Made by a program: the position numbers and the translations under genes. This document shows positions 2,995 to 15,785 of a DNA stretch of 35,495 nucleotides, one piece after another. The notes under the pieces were generated by a model. It did no database searches. It was not told where the DNA came from and worked only from the letters and a program-made list of their open reading frames with translations. The stretch is from Verrucomicrobiota bacterium. GTDB taxonomy: Bacteria; Verrucomicrobiota; Verrucomicrobiia; Opitutales; Opitutaceae. How positions within the stretch are numbered: position 1 is the first letter of the stretch; every line of letters starts with the position of its first letter. The stretch lies in contig JANXRL010000161.1 in NCBI GenBank assembly GCA_025352985.1, positions 1-35,495 on the forward strand, given 5' to 3'.

Positions 2995-4713
2995 ATGTCT
3001 TCTTCTCGCGTCCTTGCTGTTGACAGTGGCGCCGGCCATGTTGCTTGCGGCGTATTCACGTCTTCTAAATCCGGTCGTCTTGTCTTGGAGCAATTCGATC
3101 TTGAATCGTTCAATCCAGACGCCGCGATCGAGTCGCAATGGACTGAAATGGTTTCCCATTCGTTGGCAGCGGTCACAAAGCGCGCCAGCCTTTCCGGTGC
3201 GGCTGTGTTGTGTGTGCCGGGGCACCAGACACTCACGAAGTTCGTCAAGACTCCCGCTGTCGAAAAATCGAAACGCGATAAAGTAATACATTTTGAAGCC
3301 CAGCAAAATATACCTTATCAGCTAAATGAGGTTGTTTGGGACCACCTCGCTGTCAGCGACGATGGCCTAGACCTTGAAGTAATGCTGGCTGCGGTGAAGT
3401 TGGATGTGATGGAGGAACTATGCGCTGCCATAAATGAGGGGGGCGTGTCCGTTAAGTCAGTCTCGCCCTCGGCTCTCACTCTCTATCGTTCCTTTAAGTA
3501 TAATTATCCTGAGGTTTCCGACGGCGTTTTGGTCGTTAGTATCGGAGCTCGTTCAACCAATTTACTGTTTATCGACAAAAACCGATTTTTTGTGCGAACC
3601 ATCGCGCAGGCGGGTAATAGTGTCACCCAAGCTATTTCCGATGAGATCAAGCAGGATTTCGTGCAGGTCGAATCCCTGAAAGTCCAAGTATTGTCTGGGC
3701 AAAGCGACTTGCCCGAGGCATCTCCAGCTCGCGCCACCGTGCTCAATGCTGCCCATGCGTTTGTGGCCCGGCTTCATCTCGAAATCACCCGTTCCACTGT
3801 AAATTACCGCCGTCAAAGCGGTGCCGAACAGCCTGTCTGCGTTTATGTTACCGGGGGTGGTGCGCTCATTCCCGAACTTATCCCGACATTAGGTGAGAAA
3901 CTCAAAATACGTGTCGAGCGATTTGATGCCCTGCGCAACGTGGATGTAGCTGCCGGTGCCGAGAGTGCCCGCGAGCATGCCGCCGTGTTGGCCGATCTAG
4001 TGGGTTTGGCTACCCGCCTTTCAAATAAAAGCGAACCCGCGTTTACCCTGCTTCCCCCCGCCTTGGTTAAAGGCATAGTCTTCGCAAAGCAGCAGCCCTT
4101 TTACGTGGGTGCAGCCGCTTTGGTGGCGGTTGCCCTGGTTCTACCTATGTGGAGCATCAATCAGCGCGCCGAGATTGCCGCCCTCCAAATCAAAACGATC
4201 GAAGCGCAGATGCAGCCTCTTCGGCAGCTCAAGGAAGTGAATGTGGCTAATCTCGACAAAATTGAGACGACCAAAAAAGAAGTCGTTGCGATACAAAGTC
4301 TCTTTGAGTCGAAATCCAACTGGATCAATTTTTTGACTGATCTCCAAGAGCGTCTCGTAAAGGTTGAGGACGTATGGTTGGAAAAACTGCAAGTCCTGCG
4401 CCCTACCGCAACAGAGTCTACGACCGCATCCACCGCTTCCGCCGGAGTTTTTGGCGGTGTGCCTGCCGGTCAGGGGGCCGCTCCGGTCGCAACCCCCGTT
4501 TTGCGTCTTAACGTAAGCGGACGCCTGCTCGATAAAAACAACCCGGTTTCCAAGGTGAGCCAGGATTCATATAACCGTGTTAAATCTCTGCTGGCCAGTT
4601 TCGCTGACGACAAGTTTATCGCGTCAGTCGAGAAAGAAAATTTTAACCCCAACCAGCCCGGTATTCTCAGTTTCGACTTCATCCTTGTGGTCGATTCCAA
4701 AAAACCGCTCTGA
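2995..4713 (+). CDS. PilM-like actin-fold ATPase fused to a PilN-like membrane segment (position of Amuc_1101)
   Basis: The 572-residue product looks like two pilus-assembly proteins joined. Residues about 5-345 form a PilM/FtsA-type actin-like ATPase: LAVDSGAGHVACGVF near the N-terminus (phosphate-1), LVVSIGARSTNLLFID near 180-195 (phosphate-2) and VYVTGGGALIPELI near 283-296 (adenosine motif). After a linker comes FTLLPP (from residue 350), resembling the PilN N-terminal NLLP motif that docks onto PilM. A single membrane segment follows (FYVGAAALVAVALVLPMW, about 369-386), then a charged coiled-coil-like stretch to about 450 and a periplasmic domain with an Ala/Thr/Gly-rich low-complexity patch. 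In Pseudomonas and Thermus type IV pilus systems PilM and PilN are separate proteins. The cassette lacks a separate PilN, which supports the fusion. Predicted location is the inner membrane, with the ATPase domain in the cytoplasm. No Shine-Dalgarno sequence is present. Confidence 0.85.
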   Translation: MSSSRVLAVDSGAGHVACGVFTSSKSGRLVLEQFDLESFNPDAAIESQWTEMVSHSLAAVTKRASLSGAAVLCVPGHQTLTKFVKTPAVEKSKRDKVIHFEAQQNIPYQLNEVVWDHLAVSDDGLDLEVMLAAVKLDVMEELCAAINEGGVSVKSVSPSALTLYRSFKYNYPEVSDGVLVVSIGARSTNLLFIDKNRFFVRTIAQAGNSVTQAISDEIKQDFVQVESLKVQVLSGQSDLPEASPARATVLNAAHAFVARLHLEITRSTVNYRRQSGAEQPVCVYVTGGGALIPELIPTLGEKLKIRVERFDALRNVDVAAGAESAREHAAVLADLVGLATRLSNKSEPAFTLLPPALVKGIVFAKQQPFYVGAAALVAVALVLPMWSINQRAEIAALQIKTIEAQMQPLRQLKEVNVANLDKIETTKKEVVAIQSLFESKSNWINFLTDLQERLVKVEDVWLEKLQVLRPTATESTTASTASAGVFGGVPAGQGAAPVATPVLRLNVSGRLLDKNNPVSKVSQDSYNRVKSLLASFADDKFIASVEKENFNPNQPGILSFDFILVVDSKKPL

Positions 4714-4726
4714 CCCCTGACTCTCC

Positions 4727-5737
4727 ATGGCCAGTTTTAAGTCCAATCCCATTTTTTGTTCCGCTCTTATAGTCATAGGGGTGGTCGTTGCCGGCGAGGG
4801 CTGGTGCATTTTTGAACGCAGTAGGGCGGTGCAAAAAAACCAAAAAATTCTCGTGCAAAAGCGCCGGGAACTCGCGGCTCTGCAAGAGGTGAATCCTTTT
4901 CCCAGTGAAGCAAATAAGGCGGCGGTCGAGGCGGATCTCGCTCGGACGCAGACCGCGCTTGCCACCATGCGCGAGGAACTCAAGGGCCGCGGACCCACTG
5001 CCGGTCAGCTCCGCAGCGCCAAAGTGCCGGCCGAGCCCACCGACGTGTTTTTCGACCTCGCCAATTTTGTTGAGAAGAATCGCGACAATGCGAAGCAGTT
5101 CGGAGTGAAAATAAAAGCCGACGAGCGTTTTGGCTTTTCTGCCTATTCCAGCGCAGGACCTGATCGTGAGTTGATCCCTCAGGTTTTCCGCCAGCGTCAA
5201 ATCGCCCAATACCTTATCGAAGCCCTTTTCAACGCACATCCCCGCGAACTATTTTCCCTCCAGCGCGAACGTCCCCGAACGAACGCGGAGATGGTTGCCA
5301 TCGCCTCCGGTCAACCCTTGCCCGTGACTGTCGGCGAGCCACGCTTGTCATCGGCGGACACCGATTTGTTTGAAATAGATTCACGTATTTCAGCGCGGGT
5401 GCCGGGTTTTGTTACAGCTACGGCTTTCCGCCTCACGTTTATCGGTGAGACGGAGTCCCTCCGCACCCTGCTCAACAAGCTGGCGACTTTTGAACTACCC
5501 TTGGTGGTGCGCAGCGTCGAAGTTGAACCGTCTGCAGGGACGACGTCGGTCGCTGAATCTGGCACCACGAATTCCCTGAGCACCATTTTTGGCAACACAT
5601 CCAGTGGCGTTGCAACCCCTGCGGGGCCGACAAAGCCAAAGCCTCTTGTAGCTAAAGTGCTTTCTAAATTCACCGTGACCATCGAGCTGATAGATCTCGT
5701 GTCCACCACCTCCACTGCAGCCACCCCGACTTCCTGA
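4727..5737 (+). CDS. PilO-like single-pass membrane protein (position of Amuc_1100)
   Basis: This 336-residue protein starts 13 bases after the PilM-like gene. A short cytoplasmic N-terminus is followed by one membrane segment (IFCSALIVIGVVVAGEGWCIF, about residues 9-29) and a long charged coiled-coil-like region rich in Lys/Glu/Gln to about residue 90. The rest is a soluble periplasmic part. That layout, short N-tail, transmembrane helix, coiled coil and mixed alpha/beta domain, is the layout of PilN/PilO and GspL/GspM proteins. In Akkermansia muciniphila the same gene position encodes Amuc_1100, about 317 residues, known for signalling through host TLR2 and reported to resemble such assembly-platform proteins. 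Homology is inferred from order, size and topology; no host-interaction role should be assumed here. It ends in a Thr/Ser-rich tail. The next gene begins one base after its stop, so translation may be coupled. Confidence 0.75.
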   Translation: MASFKSNPIFCSALIVIGVVVAGEGWCIFERSRAVQKNQKILVQKRRELAALQEVNPFPSEANKAAVEADLARTQTALATMREELKGRGPTAGQLRSAKVPAEPTDVFFDLANFVEKNRDNAKQFGVKIKADERFGFSAYSSAGPDRELIPQVFRQRQIAQYLIEALFNAHPRELFSLQRERPRTNAEMVAIASGQPLPVTVGEPRLSSADTDLFEIDSRISARVPGFVTATAFRLTFIGETESLRTLLNKLATFELPLVVRSVEVEPSAGTTSVAESGTTNSLSTIFGNTSSGVATPAGPTKPKPLVAKVLSKFTVTIELIDLVSTTSTAATPTS

Positions 5738-9574: not shown

Positions 9575-9592
9575 GCATTTTTTTTAAAATGC
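9575..9592 (+). other. AT-rich hairpin overlapping the upstream candidate start
   Basis: GCATTTT (9575-9581) and AAAATGC (9586-9592) are perfect complements around a TTTT loop. The 3' arm contains the ATG at 9589. If the transcript from the secretin gene reads through, this stem would hide that ATG, which favours the in-frame ATG at 9607 as the real start. It is not a convincing terminator, because no U-run follows the stem. Confidence 0.35.
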
Positions 9593-9606
9593 TTATTTCA
9601 AAAATC

Positions 9607-12600
9607 ATGAAAATCATTAATTTTATTACAATGCTGGGTATAGCATTGTTTGGGTTGTTAGGCACGGCCAATGCCCAGGCGACTCGATTTCTTGTCACCG
9701 AAGCGGGCACATCCAATGCTGTTGGAACTACCCCCATACAAGCTGGTTCACCGTTTAGCGTAAAGATAGCGGCCGTAGATTCGTCTGGGAATGTGGTTAC
9801 CTCCTATAACCAGTCGGTGACCATTACTTTGCCGGAACCACGACTACCTAATTATAGCTGGGCTAAGGTTACGGCTAATTTGGTAAATGGCTTGGTGGAT
9901 AATGTTGTTCTAAATCCCATTCACGGTGGCAAATCAGATCGGCGAATTGCTGTCACGGATGGAAATATCGCAACGTATGATGCGACGCAATTGCCAAGTG
10001 CGCAGAACGGATTGTTTACCATTAGCCCTAATTACTTTGTTGTTACGCAAGCTGGCTCAAGCATCAGTAATCTTCGGAATAATTATGTAGATGGCCAAAC
10101 CGCCGATGTCAGGGTCATCGCCCTAAACTCTGATGGAACGGTCGATGAAACTTACGTCGGTATAGTCACGCTCGCATCCAATTCCGGATTGTTTGCCGAC
10201 GTTAATGTATTTTTTAGCGGCCTTACCAATGGCGTAGTCGATAGTTACGGAAAGATTGCGTTTAACGGAAGCGGCAGTGATTCCATAAGTGCTTCGGATA
10301 ATTCTGCAGTTGGGGTCTTTACCTTCGATGCATCCGCGACATTTACAGTTTTAGATAGTGTGGCGACGATTGGAACGACCGCAAATGTTGATCGTCTTGT
10401 CATAAGCGCGGTCAGCGCTTCAGGTGTTAACCCCGGTCAGTTTACTACAATAAAATTTACTGCCACCAACCCGGCAAGCGGCACCAAAGGTGATAATAAT
10501 AATCCAACGATACCTCCTACTAATGTAACTGGGCCTGTTGATTTTACGATCACCATTAGAGATTCGTCGAATGTGTTAATAACCTCCATTTTTTACAGGT
10601 ATAACGGAAATATAAATGGCGACTTTGCAAATCCGACTACCCGAGCTCTTCAAGCCGATGTTCTTATTCCAGACTCGGTAACCCCGGGAACATTTACCGT
10701 TGATGTTACGGCGGTGCAAACGGGTTCGGGGTCATTGGCGGTTGGTGGAACACCTGATCTTCAAATAACGCGCTTGGATTATGCTCCGGGGGAATATCGC
10801 GGGGGTGAAGCCTTGCGTTTTGATATGGCATGGATCAATCGGACACTAACTACTAATTCGCGTAATTCCAAGGTCATCATTGCTTCCTTCTATCGTGTTG
10901 AAATTCACCTTTCCGCCAATTCTGTTTTTGGTGATTCGGATGATGTTCTGGTTTGGGCAGGGACATTTGCGGGAAATCAGTTGGGAAGTGAATTACTACC
11001 TGGTCAGTCCGTCACACTAAACGATGCAATTTTACTTCCTAAAAATCTACCCGGTAGTTTTTTCCTTTTGGCCAAAATTAACAGTGCCGGTGGAAGGGTG
11101 AGCACAACTGATGTTACTCAAAATTTTTCATCTGGATTCAAAGAGACAATCGGTCCAAAGCCAACTAATGTTTATAGTGACGGCAATGATATTTTGTTAG
11201 GTGCCGAAGACGCGAAATTAACTCTTCTTCCTGAGCAAAATTCCGAAACACATCGCATCAGTTTAATCAATAATATGACGGAAGCAGATACAGGTGCTCA
11301 ATCGTCCGGACTCAGCGACCAACCTGCCATCAGTCAAGACGGCCGTTACACTGTTTTCCAAAGCCAAGGTTCATTCGGTTCTGGGACAGTTCAGGCTAAT
11401 ACATATAACATTTTTATTCGTGATGCGTTGCTCAATAAAACAACGTTACTTTCCTCATCCGCAAGCAAAGGAGCGGCTAACGGAGACAGCATCAACTCAC
11501 GCATGAGCAGTGATGCAAAGTATGTAGTATACCAATCTGCTGCTACCAATATAAGAAACGCCGATAATAACGGGTATACCGATATATTTATTTGTGATAC
11601 GCTTAATTCAAATACCATTAGATTGACGCCCTCCAGTTCAGTTCAAGCAAATCAGGGATCTTTTCTTCCCGATATCAGTGGAAATGGCCGTTTTGTAGTA
11701 TTCGAATCAACTGCGACCAATATTATAACTGGAGCAAATTCACTGGGGCGGCGTCAAGTGTATCTCTATGATCGTGATGTCAGTGGATCGGGTGTTTATG
11801 ATACTGCCGGTAATACAAAATATACCCTTGTTTCGAAAACACTCGGCGGTGTCACTGGCAATGGAGACAGCGCGACTCCGCGGATTTCTAGGGATGGTAA
11901 CTATGTGGTCTTTAGCACTAAAGCACCTAATCTTATCGGCGGAATATCTCCGTTTTCTCAAGTAGTAAGATGGGAACGTGCGACTGGGAAAATACTCACA
12001 ACTTCAACTAATATCGGGGCGACGTTCGCAGATGGTGATACTGCTTATCCTATCATAAATGCTAATGGTGCATATGTCGTTTTCGCGTCGCGTGCCAAAA
12101 ACCTAACTGCGGATTTAAGTCAAGTTGGTGTCCCTCACCTATTCAGGGCTGGAATTGTTTCCGGAGTGGTAACATCTGTAATTCGGATTAACGGGTATAC
12201 CGGAGCCGCTGCGGCCGCATCTATCGATTCTACTGGGGTTGTGGATTCGATTTCGATCACTAATGCAGGTTCTAGTTATACAACTGCGCCGATTGTTACT
12301 ATTACTGGTGGCGGCGGAACTGGAGCGACTGCAACCGCTCAAATTGATGTTTTTACGGGCAGAGTGATCGATGTTTCCGTTACCAACGGTGGTTCTGGTT
12401 ATACCTCAATGCCGGTTGTCACGGTTGGCTCGCTTGGGGCGACCGAACCTAATAACCCTGACTTCGGCTATATTGCAATGCCGGATCTGGGCAGTTTTGA
12501 ACCAACAGTTTCGGACGACGGAATGCTTGTTGCTTACGTTAGTGAATCCGTGAATTTGCTGCCGCCAGTGCCTGTTCACCATATTGATCGCAGCACTTAT

Positions 12601-14847
12601 CAAAGTTCCTCGGTTCAAAACTATGAGGATCGAAATGGTTGGTCAGATGTTTATATTTCGGATCTTAGCAATCCCTTGGTTCCTACCAATAAGCGGGCGT
12701 CGATCAGTAGTTTTGGCTATGAAGCAACTCCATACGGCGTAGATGGCTTGGGAACACTCCAATCCCTTTCCTCTCGTGCTCCCGCGATGTCAGGGAACGG
12801 TCGTTACGTAGCTTTTGCCTCCGACGCAAAGGGGCATAATGGATTGATTTTTGGTGTTACTAACTTTGACTATTTGGCCACGAATAGCGTAAAAGATATT
12901 TATATATACGATAACAAGGTTGGTTTGCCTGCAAATGTCGCTGACCTCCCAATTGTAGTAAGTGCCATGGATGCAAATGTTACAACCAGTGCCAATTTAT
13001 CTCTCCCGCTGGTTGCGACGGCAAGTAGCTCCTATCGGCAAATCTCATCAGTCGAGTTTTATGCTGACGGGCTTCTTGTAAGCACTGTCAACCAGCCCAC
13101 GTCGACGGCGAGTGGCCGATTTGTAGGGACATGGGATATGTCGGTGTTGGGAATTTCTGTTCTCAGGACATTTATCATAACTGCGGTTGCGATTGATTCA
13201 TTCGGTCAACGTTCGCTTGAGACTCAAATATCTAACGTGACGGTAAACCCGGTTATAGGTTTGCTCCCCAATGTTGTTATCACAAATCCGGTCTTGGGAA
13301 CTCGTTCCAGCGTAACGACAACAACGGTATCCACCCTATTGTTGAGCGCGACTGCATCCGACTCCGACGGGGCGGTTACCTCGCTTGGATTTTATATGGA
13401 TGGGACTTTGATTGCCGTGGGAGTTCGTGATGGCACGACTTTTAATTACAAGGCTTTTTATTCGATTGCCAATCCTGCATTGGGTGCTCCCTTGGCTGTG
13501 GGCACGCATTCGCTAACTGCAAAGGTTGCCGATAATTCAGGTAATGCTGTGATTTCGGCGACTGTTCCTGTAAGTATTGTTGCCGCATCGGGACCTGCCT
13601 CTACGGTCGTAGTTAAGCCTGTATCCGCAAACATTGATCTTACAAATAAGCAAACGATCACTGTAATTGCTTCACCAGGGGCTGGTGGGGTTATAAATAA
13701 TGTGGTTGTTTACGCCAATGGTTTGATCATTGGTTCATACTCCAATGTCGATCGAGTTCTTTTTCCTCTAATAGTCGGTGATTACACTCAGACATTTTCC
13801 TATATACCCACCACAACGGGGATAATTAATCTCTATGCTGTGGTTACTGATTATGATAATAATTCCAATATTAGCACCTTTTCAGGTTTTACGGTGAATC
13901 CTAACATAGTTAATGTTAACGTGGGTGGAGCTTACCAAGGTTTGCTTTTGCGTGATCCGACTAATTCGGAAGTGCAAGCGGCCATCAAGTTATACGGAGG
14001 TAATCCAACGGAAGCACAGTCTGCACTTCTTGTTGCACAATCATCTGAATTTAGAGATAATGGTGGCAATATCCTTCTTGATTACCTTGGTGTCTGGGGA
14101 AGATTTCCTACTTACGATGAATATTCGACATTGCTGGGCGAGCGACTTTTAGCCGCGATCGATACTGATATCGTTGGTGCACTTCTCGCCTCCGCCGATT
14201 ACAAGTATTTGTATGGAGACCTTAACGATCTCATGATCACCCGGTTTGCCCAATATGGATTAATTAAAAAATTCGCAGTTCGTAGCTACATGAACCTAAG
14301 TGGCGTGGGTTCTGGTCTCGTAAACTCAAATACTGTCGCGCAGACTTTCTTCAATAGCATCTCCACGAATAAGCAGACTCCTACAGTCGCTCTAGTTAAT
14401 TATATTTCTGCTAACTTCACGGGAACTAAGTCGAAAACTGCAGGAACAAAGTTGAGGATTGCCGGGTTAATCTTGAATCTTTCAAATAATGTTCCCACTT
14501 CGGACGAGGTAAATGGTTTGGCTACGGTTCCGCTGGATAGTATCGCCCAATATTATTCAACGGGGGTTTCTCCTACAAAATTCAAACCAGTCATTGCGGA
14601 AAAACCTGCGGCCATCAAAACTTCGATAGGTGGATCTGCGACTTTCAAAGTTCGTGCAGTTGGTTGGCCTGCCCCAACCTTGCAGTGGTATAAGAAGGGA
14701 AAAAAGACCGTCTTGATCCCTGGGGCTTCATCGAGCAGCTATGTTATTCCTAATGTGGCGAGCGGGGATGTCGCCCAGTATTATGTGACGGTTAAGAATT
14801 CTTCCGGCTCAGTTTCGTCGACACCGGTCGCTTTGACGATCCAGTAA
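9607..14847 (+). CDS. Very large exported protein: Ig-like, seven-blade TolB-type propeller and DUF4214-like domains
   Basis: Starting at the ATG at 9607 (1,746 residues) gives a clean signal peptide, MKIINFITMLGIALFGLLG, ending TANA. An in-frame ATG at 9589 adds six residues. Residue numbers here count from 9589. About 30-560 are beta-rich Ig/invasin-like segments. Seven blades of a TolB/WD40-like propeller follow, each marked by a line such as DGRYTVFQSQ (584), AKYVVYQSAATN, NGRFVVFESTATN (698), DGNYVVFSTKAPN, NGAYVVFASRAKN, DGMLVAYVSESVN (977) and NGRYVAFASDAKG (1070). Two Gly-rich repeats interrupt it at about 868-950. Then come three bacterial Ig-like domains with VEFYADGLLVST-type strands (1123-1437), a helical DUF4214-like part opening YQGLLLRDPTNSEVQAAI (about 1446-1657) and a final Ig-like domain (1668-1752). 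No LPXTG, PEP-CTERM or other sorting tail is visible. Base composition is much AT-richer than in neighbouring genes. The function is unknown; a surface or secreted adhesion or scaffold role is inference. Confidence 0.85.
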   Translation: MKIINFITMLGIALFGLLGTANAQATRFLVTEAGTSNAVGTTPIQAGSPFSVKIAAVDSSGNVVTSYNQSVTITLPEPRLPNYSWAKVTANLVNGLVDNVVLNPIHGGKSDRRIAVTDGNIATYDATQLPSAQNGLFTISPNYFVVTQAGSSISNLRNNYVDGQTADVRVIALNSDGTVDETYVGIVTLASNSGLFADVNVFFSGLTNGVVDSYGKIAFNGSGSDSISASDNSAVGVFTFDASATFTVLDSVATIGTTANVDRLVISAVSASGVNPGQFTTIKFTATNPASGTKGDNNNPTIPPTNVTGPVDFTITIRDSSNVLITSIFYRYNGNINGDFANPTTRALQADVLIPDSVTPGTFTVDVTAVQTGSGSLAVGGTPDLQITRLDYAPGEYRGGEALRFDMAWINRTLTTNSRNSKVIIASFYRVEIHLSANSVFGDSDDVLVWAGTFAGNQLGSELLPGQSVTLNDAILLPKNLPGSFFLLAKINSAGGRVSTTDVTQNFSSGFKETIGPKPTNVYSDGNDILLGAEDAKLTLLPEQNSETHRISLINNMTEADTGAQSSGLSDQPAISQDGRYTVFQSQGSFGSGTVQANTYNIFIRDALLNKTTLLSSSASKGAANGDSINSRMSSDAKYVVYQSAATNIRNADNNGYTDIFICDTLNSNTIRLTPSSSVQANQGSFLPDISGNGRFVVFESTATNIITGANSLGRRQVYLYDRDVSGSGVYDTAGNTKYTLVSKTLGGVTGNGDSATPRISRDGNYVVFSTKAPNLIGGISPFSQVVRWERATGKILTTSTNIGATFADGDTAYPIINANGAYVVFASRAKNLTADLSQVGVPHLFRAGIVSGVVTSVIRINGYTGAAAAASIDSTGVVDSISITNAGSSYTTAPIVTITGGGGTGATATAQIDVFTGRVIDVSVTNGGSGYTSMPVVTVGSLGATEPNNPDFGYIAMPDLGSFEPTVSDDGMLVAYVSESVNLLPPVPVHHIDRSTYQSSSVQNYEDRNGWSDVYISDLSNPLVPTNKRASISSFGYEATPYGVDGLGTLQSLSSRAPAMSGNGRYVAFASDAKGHNGLIFGVTNFDYLATNSVKDIYIYDNKVGLPANVADLPIVVSAMDANVTTSANLSLPLVATASSSYRQISSVEFYADGLLVSTVNQPTSTASGRFVGTWDMSVLGISVLRTFIITAVAIDSFGQRSLETQISNVTVNPVIGLLPNVVITNPVLGTRSSVTTTTVSTLLLSATASDSDGAVTSLGFYMDGTLIAVGVRDGTTFNYKAFYSIANPALGAPLAVGTHSLTAKVADNSGNAVISATVPVSIVAASGPASTVVVKPVSANIDLTNKQTITVIASPGAGGVINNVVVYANGLIIGSYSNVDRVLFPLIVGDYTQTFSYIPTTTGIINLYAVVTDYDNNSNISTFSGFTVNPNIVNVNVGGAYQGLLLRDPTNSEVQAAIKLYGGNPTEAQSALLVAQSSEFRDNGGNILLDYLGVWGRFPTYDEYSTLLGERLLAAIDTDIVGALLASADYKYLYGDLNDLMITRFAQYGLIKKFAVRSYMNLSGVGSGLVNSNTVAQTFFNSISTNKQTPTVALVNYISANFTGTKSKTAGTKLRIAGLILNLSNNVPTSDEVNGLATVPLDSIAQYYSTGVSPTKFKPVIAEKPAAIKTSIGGSATFKVRAVGWPAPTLQWYKKGKKTVLIPGASSSSYVIPNVASGDVAQYYVTVKNSSGSVSSTPVALTIQ

Positions 14848-14900: not shown

Positions 14901-15785
14901 ATGTCTAAATGGCTCCTTGTTGACGGATTTAATCTGGCCTACCGCTGTTTTTTTGCGGTGCCGGAACTCACCCGTGCGGACGGGTTCCCCACCAACGCTC
15001 TGCATGGCTGGGTGAAGTCACTTTGGCGCCTGGCCGATCAAGAGAAGCCTGCCGCGACGCTAGTTTTCTTCGATCTTGGCGGGGCACAGGATCGCTTGGC
15101 TTTGCATCCCGAATATAAGGCGCAGCGCGCAGAGATGCCGGAGGCACTTCAAAAGCAGATTGAGCCATTGAAGGCGCTCACTCGCGCGATGGGTCATGTC
15201 GGAATCGAACAGGAAGGAGTTGAGAGCGATGATTTGCTGGCTTCGCAGGCAGTGGCCTTGGCTCGACAAGGTCACGATGTATTGATCGTGAGCGCGGACA
15301 AGGACTTCGCTCAGATCGTTAGCGAACATATTAAAATTCTGCTGCCGCCGCCTTCAGCCAACCCCAAGTTGGGTTGGCGTGTGCTGGACGTCGCCGGGGT
15401 CACGGAAAAATTCGGGGTGCCGCCCTCCCAGATCGCAGACTATCTGGCGTTGGTTGGGGACGCTTCAGACAATATTCCCGGCGTTACCGGAGTTGGTCCC
15501 AAGACGGCATCCAAGTGGTTGCAGGAGTTCAGAAACGTTGAAGAAGTCATAGCGCACGCAGCTAGCTTAAAACCGGAACGCTTTCAGGAAGCGGTGCGCA
15601 ACGGAGCGGGCAACATCCGCCGTAATCTCAAGCTGACGACGCTCAACCTAGATTTGCCTACTGTGAAAGCGGAAATCACCGAGGTGCGCCCTCAACAACT
15701 TTTGGCCCTGTTGGAAGAGATGGAAATGAAATCCAGTCTTGCGGAGGCGCGCGCGCGCTATGAACAACCCGAGTTATTTTTTTAG
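14901..15785 (+). CDS. Stand-alone 5'-3' exonuclease (PolA N-terminal domain family)
   Basis: The product (294 residues) matches the 5'-nuclease domain of DNA polymerase I without the polymerase part, acting on flaps and RNA primers. It opens WLLVDGFNLAYRCFFAVPEL, giving the metal-binding aspartate of the PIN-like fold. EQEGVESDDLLASQAV and VLIVSADKDFAQIV carry the other acidic metal ligands. The helix-three-turn-helix DNA-binding region follows as YLALVGDASDNIPGVTGVGPKTASKWL. Length and motif order fit the family throughout. The start must be at or very near 14901, because conserved residues begin at codon 3, and that ATG directly follows a terminator U-run with no leader. A full-length polA may exist elsewhere; this could be a paralogue or a dedicated primer-removal enzyme. 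Confidence 0.9.
   Translation: MSKWLLVDGFNLAYRCFFAVPELTRADGFPTNALHGWVKSLWRLADQEKPAATLVFFDLGGAQDRLALHPEYKAQRAEMPEALQKQIEPLKALTRAMGHVGIEQEGVESDDLLASQAVALARQGHDVLIVSADKDFAQIVSEHIKILLPPPSANPKLGWRVLDVAGVTEKFGVPPSQIADYLALVGDASDNIPGVTGVGPKTASKWLQEFRNVEEVIAHAASLKPERFQEAVRNGAGNIRRNLKLTTLNLDLPTVKAEITEVRPQQLLALLEEMEMKSSLAEARARYEQPELFF

Follow-up and report, generated by a model that had tools for sequence, protein, structure and literature searches.

A PilM-PilN fusion retaining the PilN docking motif heads an Akkermansia-type Amuc_1098-1102 operon in Verrucomicrobiota

Results and Discussion

Organization of the locus

We analyzed a stretch of 35,495 nucleotides (henceforth the window) from the Verrucomicrobiota bacterium assembly GCA_025352985.1, in which one uninterrupted frame codes for a 572-residue protein at the head of an Amuc_1101/1100/1099/1098-type operon with the order MN, O, P, Q (Table 1). 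The gene order is identical to that of the Amuc_1098-1102 cluster of Akkermansia. The gene immediately downstream of the fused gene had been predicted to be PilO-like and can now be specified as a homologue of Amuc_1100 in the PilO position: its family profile retrieves the solved Amuc_1100 structure (6lad_A) with an E-value of 1.9e-64, whereas the single protein reaches only 64.8 bits with the Amuc_1100 model, for which the cut-off is 180. This profile derives from 79 loci, 74 with a complete frame and 64 non-redundant, less four long rows, and the homology is that of the profile as a whole. The secretin likewise scores below the cut-off of its Amuc_1098 family model NF042912 (441.6 bits against 750). 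For the gene between them, the PilP assignment is unproven, its family profile (30 of the 32 matches plus the window protein) recovering no solved structure in the PDB; relatives of this protein in other classes contain an inserted Cys- and Asp-rich stretch.

Directly 3' of the secretin gene lies a gene for a 1752-residue protein (9589-14847) that ends in an Ig domain at its C-terminus and also matches a beta-propeller repeat, and beyond it one for a 294-residue stand-alone 5'-3' exonuclease (14901-15785) with both domains of its family. Genes of the motor-ATPase type (PF00437) and the platform type (PF00482) are found on other contigs of the same genome, including C10 and C21.

Table 1. Features of the operon and of the fused protein, with coordinates in the window
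Feature	Coordinates	Strand	Basis
Conserved gene in the Amuc_1102 position, 215 aa	2283..2930	+	Relatives upstream of the fused gene at related loci; named by position only
Fused PilM-PilN protein, Amuc_1101 homologue	2995..4713	+	Single frame, 572 aa
PilM domain, actin-like, residues 1-345	2995..4029	+	Pfam PilM_2; fold matches
FTLLPP, PilN N-tail (docking) motif, internal in the fusion, residues 350-355	4042..4059	+	Conservation in alignment; profiles
Single membrane helix, residues 370-388	4102..4158	+	19-mer hydropathy 2.03, no other 19-mer reaching 1.6
Coiled-coil-like part of long helix, residues 389-457	4159..4365	+	Full-chain model
Periplasmic PilN-like domain, residues 434-572	4294..4710	+	Separate model, alpha-beta-beta-alpha-beta-beta
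336-aa Amuc_1100 homologue, PilO position, with a single membrane helix close to the N-terminus	4727..5737	+	Profile; models
Gene in the Amuc_1099/PilP position, 308 aa	5739..6665	+	PilP-like by position and N-terminal helix only
Secretin of Amuc_1098 type in the PilQ position, 932 aa	6727..9525	+	Pfam/NCBIfam

A PilM domain that runs on into a complete PilN

The original prediction, that an actin-like ATPase extending to about residue 345 is covalently fused to PilN, is upheld on both counts. Pfam PilM_2 matches residues 22-341 with 77.6 bits (cut-off 27), TIGR01175 (pilM) gives 83.4 bits, below its own cut-off of 133, and the modeled domain superimposes on the PilM structures 2ych_A (Z 33.8, rmsd 2.6, 321 residues aligned) and 3jc8_Ma (Z 33.3). 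When the full-length profile is compared with PDB chains it aligns with Myxococcus PilM at positions 1-351 and then with Myxococcus PilN (3jc8_Na) at 355-485, the latter with an E-value of 7.8e-10, and it continues across the junction in 5eou, an engineered P. aeruginosa chain of the form PilM:PilN(1-12). An assembly artefact was rejected as the source of the fusion, given homologues of equal length in other assemblies, including ones with 80-81% identity across residues 1-572; the nearest named relative, at 80% identity, comes from an Opitutaceae assembly. The protein is thus a genuine PilM-PilN fusion, in which the PilM domain runs on into a complete PilN comprising, according to sequence and models, the N-tail motif, a membrane helix, a coil and a ferredoxin-like domain.

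Among NCBIfam models the best match is NF045709 ('Amuc_1101 family PilM-like pilus complex protein', E 2.1e-106), and the homology covers the PilM part, the membrane helix and the coil (model positions 4-484 of 608). As the score of 357.1 bits lies under the curated cut-off of 650, profile comparison makes the protein an Amuc_1101 homologue not classed as an NF045709 equivalog.

The C-terminal part has, as predicted, a single membrane helix, which had been placed at residues 369-386 and whose best 19-mer starts at 370. The predicted coiled-coil-like stretch and periplasmic domain also recur in the full-chain model (mean pLDDT 91.5, pTM 0.72), where one helix spans residues 355-457, with the membrane helix inside it, and leads into a small alpha/beta domain. 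A profile of residues 341-572 built from 69 sequences and compared with all PDB chains retrieves Myxococcus PilN (3jc8_Na) first, with an E-value of 2.6e-12, over PilN residues 3-133, that is, the INLLP tail, membrane helix and coil; the second match has an E-value of 0.007, and the rest among the 60 listed are mostly coiled-coil chains. The Pfam PilN model PF05137 has no match in the window protein at an E-value of 0.1 and matches 6 of the 69 fused-family members (best 0.0026), which suggests that the PilN domain has diverged.

A separate model of residues 434-572 (pLDDT 88.1) presents a helix-strand-strand-helix-strand-strand arrangement with one short additional helix in the first loop, in line with the ferredoxin-like PilN fold anticipated for this part, here as a permuted ferredoxin-like domain of the PilN/PilO/GspL type. 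The best fold match is PilO 2rjz_B (Z 9.6, rmsd 2.4, 89 aligned), and others are PilO in 3jc8 (Z 9.5, rmsd 3.2, 95 aligned), the type II secretion chain 5hl8_A (Z 9.4, rmsd 2.7, 81 of 81 aligned), XcpY 6ghu_A (Z 8.5, rmsd 2.5, 78 aligned), Amuc_1100 6kny_A (Z 8.3, rmsd 3.5, 99 aligned) and EpsL 2w7v_A (Z 8.1, rmsd 3.4, 82 aligned). Circular permutants of ribosomal S6 score up to 8.8 (6i6w), which a permuted ferredoxin fold would lead one to expect, and a phage neck protein reaches 8.0; with such proteins scoring nearly as high, Z alone is modest evidence. A plain Foldseek search with this domain returned nothing at an E-value of 0.001. The Thermus PilN structure, which we take to be solved and had expected among the fold matches, does not appear among those listed, an absence that is uninformative. 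As modeled, the C-terminal fold is common to PilN, PilO, GspL and GspM and is not by itself PilN-specific.

Given this shared fold, the protein could be read as GspL of a type II secretion system rather than as a fused pilus PilM-PilN. The domain layout is identical, the C-terminal domain has periplasmic domains of GspL among its top fold matches, and the T2SSL and gspL models are detectable in the protein. Their scores of 19.2 and 28.9 bits nevertheless fall under the respective cut-offs of 25.5 and 65, far below those of the PilM models; the C-terminal profile selects PilN and not GspL among PDB sequences; the PilN-type LLP motif is retained; and the sole T2SSL match in the genome is the fused gene itself, under the cut-off. 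Based on the profile scores and the lack of any T2SSL match above the cut-off in the genome we rejected a GspL identity, which we regard as quite improbable. Least credible of all is a PilM joined to an unrelated membrane anchor with an LLP sequence by coincidence, a reading in keeping with the failure of PF05137 on the window protein and the weak Foldseek E-values of the C-terminal domain, but largely refuted by the 131-residue profile match to PilN and further opposed by the invariant motif proline and the fold of the PilN/PilO/GspL group. We are accordingly highly confident that the gene codes for a PilM-PilN fusion that acts at the inner membrane as base subunit in a type IV filament machine like that of the Akkermansia Amuc_1098-1102 cluster.

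The internal docking motif

The junction of the two parts carries FTLLPP, which had been likened to the PilN docking motif and does align with the N-tail of Myxococcus PilN (INLLP). Its conservation across orthologues was examined in an alignment of the fused family for which 84 matching frames were available; with four loci left out (the window gene in two copies, a twin of locus L040 and one locus cut off at a contig edge), 80 rows remained, or 81 with the query. An 85% redundancy filter yielded 68 rows, 69 with the window protein, and alignment A5 holds 42 of these 69, more distant rows with long loops being excluded. In the 68-row set the motif proline is present in every row and the first leucine (L352) in 67, with one methionine, while the second leucine is variable (37 L, 19 V, 5 M and others). 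P354 is invariant with the window protein included (69/69), and in each of the 81 aligned rows [LM]xP is followed by a hydrophobic segment within about 50 residues. Members scoring above the Amuc_1101 (NF045709) cut-off keep the motif too, often as DLEP, the form found in one group of them. Judged from these alignments, the conservation of the motif far exceeds chance.

In Thermus the first eight residues of PilN are reported to sit in a narrow channel of PilM (PMC6325625). The full-chain model of the window protein is well defined across the corresponding region (pLDDT 94 and 97 for residues 341-350 and 351-360), and its first Foldseek match is 5eou_B (E 1.4e-25). In the structural comparison, for which aligned ranges give first and last residues only, the match to 5eou_B extends from residue 4 to residue 355 of the model. 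Those to 2ych_A, 3jc8_Ma and the P. aeruginosa chains of PilM alone stop at 343-345, the pattern expected of a tail in the PilN site. The 5eou crystal chimera resembles the fusion in that both profile and model span its joint and its linker is of similar length; unlike the natural fusion, it is engineered and has just 12 PilN residues. From the model we infer that residues 350-355 would dock in the PilM groove in cis.

Relationship to known fusions

The original prediction took PilN of the known pilus systems to be made as a chain of its own; this fails for the Campylobacterota, where pilM and pilN are fused in most pilus clusters (PMC11870540). These pilMNOPQ clusters share with the window the same fusion within a type IV pilus operon; they come from a different phylum, and we liken them by description, not by sequence. 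GspL/PulL offers a further parallel, in which a single chain combines a PilM-like domain in the cytoplasm, one membrane helix and a ferredoxin-like domain in the periplasm, although the sequence of the window protein is closer to PilM and PilN. PilMN of Clostridioides difficile is presumably also one fused gene. Accounts of its primary pilus cluster name PilMN beside PilC and PilO (PMC6143707, PMC7057214); this likeness is by its single name and not by sequence. Amuc_1101 itself has been termed FtsA-like (PMC5332112) and a PilM protein (PMC13174399), and not a PilM-PilN fusion, in the accessible portions of these reports. Within the partially available open-licence literature searched, we found no Verrucomicrobiota family named as such a fusion. 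PilM-PilN fusions as such are already described, namely PulL/GspL and those of most Campylobacterota pilus clusters. The present analysis adds the Akkermansia-type family to them, with the docking motif retained and an unfused paralogous set beside it.

Phyletic spread and a second, unfused operon

At an E-value of 1e-5 NF045709 has matches in 270 of 288 genomes of the phylum, 13 of them weaker than 1e-20 and possibly other actin-like proteins, and the window protein as query finds a match at 1e-10 in 72 of the 94 closer relatives. Verification of the fused layout and of the motif covered 81 rows (the window and 80 others) rather than all 270 genomes. By these searches the fusion is very widespread in Verrucomicrobiota. 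PF05137 matches 56 of 145 genomes of the phylum, and 13 of 15 such loci inspected code for GspL-like chains of about 450-570 residues (the remaining two were read in the wrong frame). Many genomes of the phylum have a further GspL-like fused chain of this size, in which an LxLaP-like motif precedes the membrane helix and a PF05137 domain is present.

The prediction that there is no separate PilN gene holds within the window and fails for the genome as a whole. Searches of the genome gave no match for PF05137, a best E-value of only 0.086 for PF04350 (PilO), and the window gene alone above the cut-off for PF11104. A same-genus genome codes side by side for PilM-like (350 aa), PilN-like (212 aa; PF05137 E 0.0019, under the cut-off), PilO-like (187 aa), PilP-like (160 aa) and secretin (524 aa) proteins. 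With its PilN-like protein and the neighbor of that protein as queries, a diverged unfused PilM/PilN-like pair emerged in our genome, and the notion of a genome without a separate PilN was dropped. The pair lies on contig C132 in the same run of genes in tight order (9668-14057; 345, 213, 187, 170 and 556 aa), the PilO- and PilP-like labels being given by position and size only; the Pfam PilM, PilN and PilO models miss its PilM-, PilN- and PilO-like genes.

Profiles of the unfused PilM-like and PilN-like proteins match no PDB chain. With hhalign the PilM-like protein aligns to the PilM part of the fused family (95.8%, E 6.9e-9) and the PilN-like protein to its PilN part (94.0%, E 1.4e-7) across the membrane helix and coil, the periplasmic domain of the latter alone giving 2.9%; alignments A6 and A7 comprise 26 of 30 and 23 of 29 rows. 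The tail of the unfused PilN-like protein is WHPNFRNxERLPDxKVVRT and not LLPP. By these comparisons the pair is weakly tied to PilM and PilN, gene order and the secretin bearing much of the case. Among the 94 relatives, 50 combine the fused protein with a separate PilN-like protein, 22 have just the fused one, 12 just the separate one and 10 neither, incomplete assemblies being counted. The unfused operon probably serves a second machine.

Functional implications

We propose that the internal LLP motif sits in the groove filled elsewhere by a separate PilN tail; occupied in cis, the groove would covalently anchor the actin-like ring, which would face the motor ATPase, to the PilN/PilO platform and leave PilM permanently PilN-bound, as in GspL. 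Motor ATPases and platform proteins for this machine would be supplied from other loci of the genome. In Thermus the motor ATPase is stimulated about two-fold by PilM and PilN together and by neither alone, and PilM and PilN are reported at 1:1, 2:2 or 3:3 (PMC6325625). The fusion would make such an ATPase-stimulating state permanent; the fixed 1:1 stoichiometry originally predicted does follow from it, yet adds little to what the Thermus pair already has. Tentatively, and with more doubt than belief, we raise the idea that across nearly the whole phylum PilM of one machine is locked in the PilN-bound state, with no regulation by PilN binding and release, which the unfused set of the second machine may retain. 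If true, nature would here offer a case in which a locked and a switchable base can be compared within one cell.

The poorly annotated Amuc_1101 family thereby gains a concrete reading, as a single chain that unites PilM with PilN in the Amuc_1098-1102 machine, and Amuc_1100, which has been studied for host effects, occupies the PilO position next to this fusion. That the docking motif is kept despite covalent fusion suggests that groove binding does more than anchor, a role that the coexisting unfused operon makes testable within one lineage.
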